Translations under genes and position numbers: made by a program | Part shown: positions 3,128-36,166 of the stretch, piece by piece | How positions within the stretch are numbered: the first letter of the stretch is position 1 | Layout: each line of letters begins with the position of its first letter | Notes under the pieces: generated by a model | What the model saw: the letters and a program-made list of their open reading frames with translations, nothing else | Databases searched by the model: none | What the model was told of the DNA's origin: nothing | Source of the DNA: Clostridia bacterium | GTDB lineage: Bacteria > Bacillota > Clostridia > Christensenellales > CAG-1252 | DNA: 64,000 bases | Direction of reading: 5' to 3' | NCBI GenBank assembly: GCA_017394805.1 | Contig: JAFPXC010000013.1 | Span: 62,001-126,000, forward strand

Positions 3128-3527
3128 CTATTCGCCCATCGGGCAAGATATGTTGCGCTATGCCGAGAGATCCGGCCGCGAAGATAATGCGATCGTTCGG
3201 TTGACGCCGAAAAAGGGGATACGTAGGGCGGAATACCGTGCCATCGAAAGCACGGACGAACGGCGGAGCGAGGCCGAGAACGGCAAAACGACGAGCGAGG
3301 TAGCCGCACCCTTTCCGCAGGCGACGAGCGCACGATTTCGAGGGTATCGCACGAGGTTTACAATGGTATATCCTCGGCCCGATGGGGGCGAGGGTATTTT
3401 TTACGCCGCCGCCATACACAAAATATAGTGGTTTTGCGAAAAGAAAGGTACTATATATGGCGGTATATGAATAATCATACAAAAAGCGCAAGGATAGTCG
3501 GGCAAAAAGCCAACTTTTGGCAAGGCC
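3128..3527. other. Intergenic stretch without a convincing gene
   Basis: About 400 bases between the tRNA terminator and the next promoter. Open frames on both strands have no recognisable protein and no good ribosome site; the longest minus-strand one runs into the tRNA itself. A GC-rich hairpin followed by ATTTTTTA at about 3370-3405 could be a terminator, and CCGCCAT/ATGGCGG arms flank 3408-3465. Nothing else could be assigned. Confidence 0.5.
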
Positions 3528-7394: not shown

Positions 7395-7500
7395 GGAGAA
7401 ATTGTCGCATTGCGCCATCTTGAACGTAGTCGTCAAGACGACAAGTCGAAAGACCTTATCGGTGGGATATGGAAGGAATGCTAAAATCAAAAACCGCAAC

Positions 7501-7585
7501 TTGCCGTAGGCGAACTTCACTCAAGGCTATGCCTTGAACTTCACTTGCGAACGCAAACTTCACTTCGCCGTATGCGAAACTTCAC
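7501..7585. repeat. Hairpin-spacer array 1 (ACTTCAC spacers)
   Basis: Four short inverted repeats of unrelated sequence, TTGCC-GTA-GGCGA, TCAAGGC-TAT-GCCTTGA, TTGCG-AA-CGCAA and TTCGC-CGTAT-GCGAA, each followed by the identical 7-mer ACTTCAC at 7514, 7538, 7557 and 7579. Period 24, 19 and 22 nt. The loops and arms differ while the spacer is constant, so this is not a plain tandem repeat. Similar arrays occur at 35119-35201 and 36003-36166. Confidence 0.85.
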
Positions 7586-7609
7586 TGTTATTTGAGGCAA
7601 CTCAAATAA

Positions 7610-35087: not shown

Positions 35088-35118
35088 GCTCCGCCTCTCC
35101 CACCTATCCAACCGCAAC

Positions 35119-35201
35119 GCAACGAAGTTGCAATCCACGACGGCGTGCGCCGACAATTCACGGCCGCAGGCCAATTCACGCGGACGCAGTCCGCAATTCA
35201 C
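35119..35201. repeat. Hairpin-spacer array 2 (AATTCAC spacers)
   Basis: Hairpins GCAAC-GAA-GTTGC, CGGCG-TG-CGCCG, GGCC-GCA-GGCC and GCGGAC-GCA-GTCCGC separated by AATCCAC at 35132 and AATTCAC at 35155, 35173 and 35195. Period 23, 18 and 22 nt. A degenerate further unit may follow to about 35222. Same design as the array at 7501-7585 with a related but distinct spacer. Confidence 0.85.
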
Positions 35202-35954: not shown

Positions 35955-36002
35955 TACGCTCCAACTCTATCTCTACCGCAACGCACGTTTTGCGTGTAAA
36001 TC

Positions 36003-36166
36003 ATTCACGCGGTGAATATCATTCGCCGCCCGGCGGCGCCCACGTCCCGATGAACGTCGGATTTCACCCAACGAAGTTGGGTTTCTCCCGTGCTTCCGCA
36101 CGGATTTCTCCCGAGGCCTTGCCTCGGATTTCTCACCCACAGTCGCGCTTCCTCGCGCCTGTGGGT
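36003..36166. repeat. Hairpin-spacer array 3 (ATTTCAC/ATTTCTC spacers)
   Basis: Hairpins include ATTCAC-GCG-GTGAAT, CGCCG-CC-CGGCG, CCGAT-GAAC-GTCGG, CCAAC-GAA-GTTGG, CCGTGC-TTCC-GCACGG, CCGAGGC-CTT-GCCTCGG and a longer terminal stem ACCCACA / TGTGGGT. Spacers ATTTCAC (36061), GTTTCTC (36081), ATTTCTC (36104) and ATTTCTC (36128); period 20-24 nt. The whole fills the gap between the membrane protein gene and the opp promoter. No open frame of note lies here. Confidence 0.85.

Follow-up and report, generated by a model that had tools for sequence, protein, structure and literature searches.

The hairpin arrays of the analysed window, a 64,000-nucleotide stretch of a Clostridia bacterium genome (contig JAFPXC010000013.1, positions 62,001 to 126,000), are dispersed copies of fixed four-hairpin elements, and they probably form the ends of a small mobile element whose single encoded protein belongs to the four-helix-bundle (4HB) family PF05635/TIGR02436, accompanied by many dispersed end copies. 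The first-pass annotation had described hairpins held apart by a constant 7-nt spacer from position 7501 onward, and these were confirmed, its coordinates being short only of the 7-nt leader (Table 1). The same design with related spacers had been reported at two further sites of the window, where we found a family B element (AATTCAC, with a mutated form, AATCCAC, as its first linker) and a family C element (ATTTCWC). A DNA fold of the family C element recovered all four hairpins (z -6.1), and in the minimum-energy DNA fold of the family A copy hairpin 1 was missing.

Table 1. Array features in the window (window positions).
Feature	Positions	Strand	Sequence or remark
Family A element	7494..7585	+	Leader, 4 hairpins and 4 linkers ACTTCAC (five heptamers)
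Leader heptamer	7494..7500	+	CCGCAAC (family A consensus CCRCAAC)
Hairpin 1	7501..7513	+	TTGCC-GTA-GGCGA, one T.G pair, GNA triloop
Linker after hairpin 1	7514..7520	+	ACTTCAC
Hairpin 2	7521..7537	+	TCAAGGC-TAT-GCCTTGA
Linker after hairpin 2	7538..7544	+	ACTTCAC
Hairpin 3	7545..7556	+	TTGCG-AA-CGCAA
Linker after hairpin 3	7557..7563	+	ACTTCAC
Hairpin 4	7564..7578	+	TTCGC-CGTAT-GCGAA
Linker, 3' end of element	7579..7585	+	ACTTCAC
Gut-1 RNA match, full length	7509..7587	-	27.9 bits, E 0.0013 (301-base search), below gathering score 50
Family B element	35112..35201	+	Leader CCGCAAC, 4 hairpins; linkers AATCCAC, AATTCAC x3; closing pair G-C
Degenerate hairpin array	35988..36039	+	Linkers near ATCATT; directly upstream of family C element
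Family C element	36040..36134	+	Leader CCACGTC, 4 hairpins; linkers ATTTCAC, GTTTCTC, ATTTCTC, ATTTCTC; closing pair C-G

Comparison with shuffled sequence placed the arrays far above chance. A linker-blind scan for chains of at least three hairpins gave 44 in 718 kb of the genome versus 6 in Markov-shuffled sequence, with TTCAC-like linkers in most of the excess chains, and once linkers were specified the same 718 kb held 70 arrays versus 0.6 expected. Across the whole genome (2.04 Mb), TTCAC-N-TTCAC-N-TTCAC matched 79 times versus 4 for the reversed control pattern. The pairing test was kept apart from detection by taking the segments between consecutive exact linkers and scoring their first five positions; pairing was found in 95% (family A), 89% (family B) and 91% (family C) versus 51-57% when arms were re-dealt among segments, which bears out the earlier view that pairing is kept in the stems. 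Column-wise pair counts from alignment A1 were set aside, since pairs fall out of register in copies whose stems are shorter, and arm re-dealing was used in their place. Four families were distinguished by linker and by the closing pair of the stem: A (ACTTCAC, T-A), B (AATTCAC, G-C), C (ATTTC(T/A)C, C-G) and D (AT(C/A)TCGC, A-T).

Copies of family A share the order CCRCAAC-[TTGCGC..]-[TCAAGGC..]-[TTGC..]-[TTTCGC..] and have sharp boundaries (CCRCAAC...ACTTCAC) within unrelated flanks. The window copy aligned with 18 other copies from its own genome at a mean column identity of 85%, and compensatory changes were evident at hairpin 1 (TTGCGC/GCGCAA, TCGTGC/GCACGA, TCGCC/GGCGA). The variable stems had been called unrelated, which holds for the stems of any one array but fails across dozens of dispersed copies, where an ordered set of stems is conserved. 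Nor do the arrays grow freely by the addition of units, as had been suggested: the number of units is not open-ended, and the commonest full form has four hairpins. The companion suggestion, that units are shuffled, does not describe the fixed four-hairpin copies of this genome but does describe its relatives, in one of which (G016) the same hairpins are combined in many orders and some arrays reach 5-6 hairpins; other genera of the family keep the linkers and carry different, reshuffled hairpins. Within the order the pattern is distributed patchily, and it peaks clearly in genomes including G107, G127, G202 and G252, and the ACTTCAC pattern was counted in 120 stretches of phage contigs, a raw, unsorted count without a control. 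Adjoining family B and A arrays also form B-A or A-B-A composites (L063:19392-19816, L055:7411-7843, L052:14389-14822), which are partly tandem duplications of array plus flank. Just upstream of arrays there is often a further repeat, also dispersed, of the form GTCATTCCGAGTTTATCGAGGAATCCC...AGAGGCAC (L054, L055, L058, L060), and a separate, hairpin-free tandem repeat, GCACAATTTCAC, of period 12 occurs at G000:C12:62522-62610.

The gene linked to the arrays is a PF05635 four-helix-bundle gene flanked by them, whereas the RAYT-like transposase that the first-pass annotation had expected is absent: a profile search of the genome for the Y1 transposase PF01797 found none while matching five positive control genomes, and the reverse transcriptase PF00078 was absent from G000, G016, G011 and G107. 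The first clue to the gene came from composite arrays in MAG contigs, several of which are directly followed by a 4HB gene. PF05635/TIGR02436 is a four-helix-bundle protein family named '23S rRNA IVP/S23', and the only PF05635 gene of this genome (C9:72022-72309; 86.6 bits against a cut-off of 33.8 for PF05635 and 96.1 bits against 24 for TIGR02436) sits between two family C arrays of opposite orientation (L055:2796-2888, minus strand, and 3352-3444, plus strand), the same family as the third array of the window. The ends of this single gene belong to family C; for families A, B and D the genome contains no cognate 4HB gene. The inverted-array layout around a 4HB gene is also present in G016, with ACTTCAC arrays, and beside composites in L067, L089 and L138. 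In L067, L082, L089, L090 and L138, pairs of divergent arrays make up composites that also have a long-range stem, a larger single-strand fold, the long-range stems of L067 being AAGTTTGCCC...GGGCAAACTT and AAGTGTTCCGC...GCGGAACACTT.

Across the order and class, hairpin arrays flanking 4HB genes carry linkers that include ATATAAC, ATTTAGC, ATTCA, CATCAT, GCTTCAT and TCATAAC. Exact-repeat hairpin arrays flank 17 of 85 4HB loci versus 0 of 1680 shuffled flanks, and many 4HB genes have no array visible in the scans. When 247 genomes of the order were classified, 21 had both arrays and PF05635, 8 (of the 29 array-rich genomes) arrays without a PF05635 match, 37 PF05635 alone and 181 neither, giving an odds ratio of 12.8 (p 2.5e-9, a value that ignores relatedness). 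Linker labels, set by eye before the tree was built, were then placed on a tree of 102 4HB proteins (43 labelled genes, 8 types), on which linker type changed 8 times versus a mean of 29.3 and a minimum of 25 in 300 shuffles of the labels, and therefore protein clade predicts linker. Linker and 4HB protein appear from this comparison to co-evolve, giving families with different linkers. Several 4HB genes lie within or beside restriction operons (L461, L463, L466, L467); the Monoglobus gene occurs with a type I R-M operon, that of Planktothrix with DISARM drmD and a methyltransferase, and those of Euhalothece and Chlorohelix with an N-6 methylase. On scaffold MT835815 (L464), filed as phage, a 4HB gene with GTGATAT-linker hairpins upstream lies close to what by eye is an apparent tRNA gene.

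The conserved unit of the ends emerged from 4HB clades without hairpins, whose genes have tandem repeats on their flanks instead, inverted and with a period of exactly 7. A lag-7 tandem tract was found in 59 of 230 4HB flanks, compared with one each at lags 8 and 11 and none at all other lags from 4 to 12. These tracts are mostly 3.7-5.4 units long, and where a locus has tracts on both sides they are inverted in 19 cases and direct in 1. Control gene flanks of the own genome had lag-7 tracts in 0 of 1049 cases, and windows away from 4HB genes in relatives had them in 40 of 2420 (no other lag exceeding 4), a result that solo copies dispersed in the genome would give. Given period-7 tracts at hairpin-free 4HB genes, the 7-nt linker of the arrays is therefore the same kind of unit, with hairpins set between units. 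Four hairpins, and so five heptamers, make up the full array seen most often in this genome's families A, B and C, in A and B of G016, in G107 and in G019, and this form leads in most of the families counted; arrays in which fewer units can be detected are also frequent, and some tandem tracts run to 7-39 units. Plasmid pTS1 of Treponema saccharophilum (L460:1150-1500) stands out with a tract of about 39 heptamers ahead of the 4HB gene, well beyond the usual five.

An occupied/empty site pair in Nostoc, of the tandem-heptamer form, shows that heptamer arrays bound a discrete unit; no hairpin-type copy was caught moving. Plasmid pC052_A of Nostoc sp. C052 carries a 435-bp segment in which a 4HB gene lies between perfect inverted ends of 39 bp, CAAAATAATTCGTAATTCGTAATTCGTAATTCGTAATTA, with five heptamer cores. 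Four related plasmids are without this segment, and in them the same junctions enclose 197 bp of other DNA. The 197 bp of host DNA missing from pC052_A may have been lost during insertion or by a later deletion. Terminal inverted repeats (the Nostoc ends and the inverted arrays around 4HB genes) are a likeness to DDE insertion sequences and MITEs, from which the present elements differ in that a target-site duplication was found neither in the Nostoc pair nor, at 2-8 nt, in 18 family A copies. Long direct repeats surround 5 of 70 arrays and 5 of 181 control intergenic sites; one of the five, a family A array (L036:1292-1379), has the same 103 bp of a gene end repeated directly on either side, a tandem duplication. 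In a search of same-genus genomes for an orthologous empty site of the family A copy in the window, the single match (78% identity) left the array side uncovered.

Among known systems, CRISPR (direct repeats of 23-50 bp, unique spacers) was ruled out by the 7-nt constant part and the palindromic variable parts, as the first-pass annotation had judged, and a CRISPR-DR match was at chance level only. Its further judgement that the arrays match no REP/BIME form it recognised also stands: REP/RAYT repeats have a conserved stem and a tetranucleotide tag, whereas here the stems vary between arrays and species and the linker is constant. What the arrays share with REP/BIME and RAYT (TnpA-REP) is that short palindromic repeats are scattered between genes, that they flank a cognate gene present once and that the substrate is suspected to be single-stranded DNA; the differences are the missing Y1 transposase, a protein that, by its relatives, is a four-helix-bundle pentamer, and ends of five heptamers. 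By eye, the linker strand has no GTTRRRY-like box of an integron attC site. The 23S rRNA intervening sequences (IVS) with S23p/IVP, suspected to be selfish, have the PF05635 family in common with our elements, and in Coxiella tandem GACAGAT heptamers lie just upstream of S23p (PMC4990558); unlike IVS, the elements described here are intergenic between protein genes, have heptamers on both sides and leave many solo end copies. The GGGAATC-type heptamers, an unexplained excess in Xanthomonas and Nostoc (PMC4692102), are likewise dispersed intergenic tandem heptamers, the likeness for Xanthomonas being by description, and their description makes no tie to 4HB genes. PF05635 also resembles Avd of diversity-generating retroelements (PMC10053308), from which the present system differs in having no reverse transcriptase. 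The Rfam Gut-1 RNA (RF01706) scored above its gathering score on arrays in L089 (two), L224 and L134 and below it on the window copy, and at the gathering threshold the whole window gave tRNA only. Gut-1 is a noncoding RNA known only from environmental (human gut) sequence, according to the available portion of its description, which mentions neither a repeat nature nor a link to 4HB genes (PMC2864571); it may be part of the element class proposed below.

The strand and orientation of the arrays bear on several alternatives. On the linker strand, 73 GNA triloops were counted versus 9 of the complement form, and 36 GNNA tetraloops versus 4, the loops being closed mostly by C-G, i.e., of the type C(GNA)G. 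Mini-hairpins of the form d(C-GNA-G) are exceptionally stable in DNA, whereas RNA favours UNCG and GNRA tetraloops. In this genome the linker strand lies on the C-rich strand by 58:4 (GC skew), with a majority in each family, and where gene strand and skew conflict the arrays follow skew 19:1; G107 has a weaker bias (13:4) and G016 none (6:14). The mirror image of the loop argument was applied by Weinberg et al. to the STAXI motif (PMC2864571). The orientation in this genome would agree with single-stranded DNA being inserted, or being under selection, at forks. We count the earlier proposal of a selected single-strand structure as right. It is improbable that the arrays are instead transcribed and act as structured RNA to which the 4HB protein binds, perhaps with a part in its regulation or processing. 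The filing of Gut-1 as an sRNA with threshold matches on arrays, the composites that stop just short of a Shine-Dalgarno sequence and ATG, and the S23/IVP reading frames of IVS elements, which are excised as RNA (PMC4990558), would suit such a role, but the triloops are of the DNA type and not UUCG, G-U is in no excess over A-C (mismatched pairs G.T 8 versus A.C 6, too few to decide strand), the arrays of this genome run against the leading strand and follow skew and not gene direction, and the Gut-1 model strand is the opposite of the GNA-loop strand. The skew orientation could also reflect replication or segregation signals, i.e., polar repeats that are read in replication and spread by recombination with hairpins as by-products; we regard this as very improbable, as the arrays are inverted ends around a gene, the families are patchy among relatives, the bias is absent in G016 and a polar signal has no need of conserved stem pairing. 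Rather unlikely, too, is an orientation produced by purifying selection and not by insertion, in which copies with the stabler hairpin strand on the lagging-strand template were deleted: the linker strand is indeed the slightly stabler DNA hairpin strand and lies on the strand other than the lagging-strand template, but the difference in mean hairpin energy is small (-4.58 versus -4.49 kcal/mol).

For the mobile element with a 4HB gene, we propose a mechanism in which the conserved unit is the 7-nt linker and a full end would present five (leader plus four). Heptamers directly adjoin one another, at a period of exactly 7, in some clades; in others, the mini-hairpin between heptamers would extrude on the single strand and so bring the heptamers together. 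The protein would form a homopentameric ring in which each subunit binds one heptamer: five chains are present in each of two solved relatives of the 4HB protein, 2rld (E 5.5e-22) and 2gsc, and S23p is a homopentamer toroid (PMC4990558). From these relatives we infer one heptamer per subunit and one ring per end. Such a ring would act on single-stranded DNA, probably at replication forks, and may be the agent of cutting and joining; the DNA-type loops, the replication orientation, the lack of target-site duplications and of a transposase of the types searched would all be expected of such a ring. To our knowledge, 4HB proteins have no catalytic activity, and it is therefore possible, though we lean against it, that the 4HB gene is a passenger whose protein only bridges or protects ends moved in trans by another enzyme. 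The precedent of Avd, the PF05635-like accessory protein of a reverse transcriptase (PMC10053308), would agree with a passenger, but this genome, G016 and G107 have no reverse transcriptase, a Y1 transposase is lacking here, and linker specificity tracks the 4HB protein tree.

Beyond this genome, we tentatively put forward, as a conceivable but not yet probable extension, an element class across several phyla that is moved by a pentameric 4HB protein unlike known transposases, the ring reading exactly five single-stranded heptamers per end, with mini-hairpins as removable spacers and insertion at forks, and of which the heptameric repeat excess, Gut-1 RNA and the S23-bearing 23S rRNA IVS would all be products. 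The open-access literature yielded no paper that links 4HB genes to flanking arrays, or Gut-1, IVS and heptamer repeats to each other, and the finding may tie together several long-unexplained bacterial repeats. PF05635/TIGR02436 is a common family without a function; were the proposal true, it would acquire a role, a substrate and a stoichiometry of five subunits to five heptamers. An Rfam RNA, the hairpin arrays of gut Clostridia and dispersed heptamer repeats would then be explained, and the known transposition systems would be joined by one that has no known catalytic fold.
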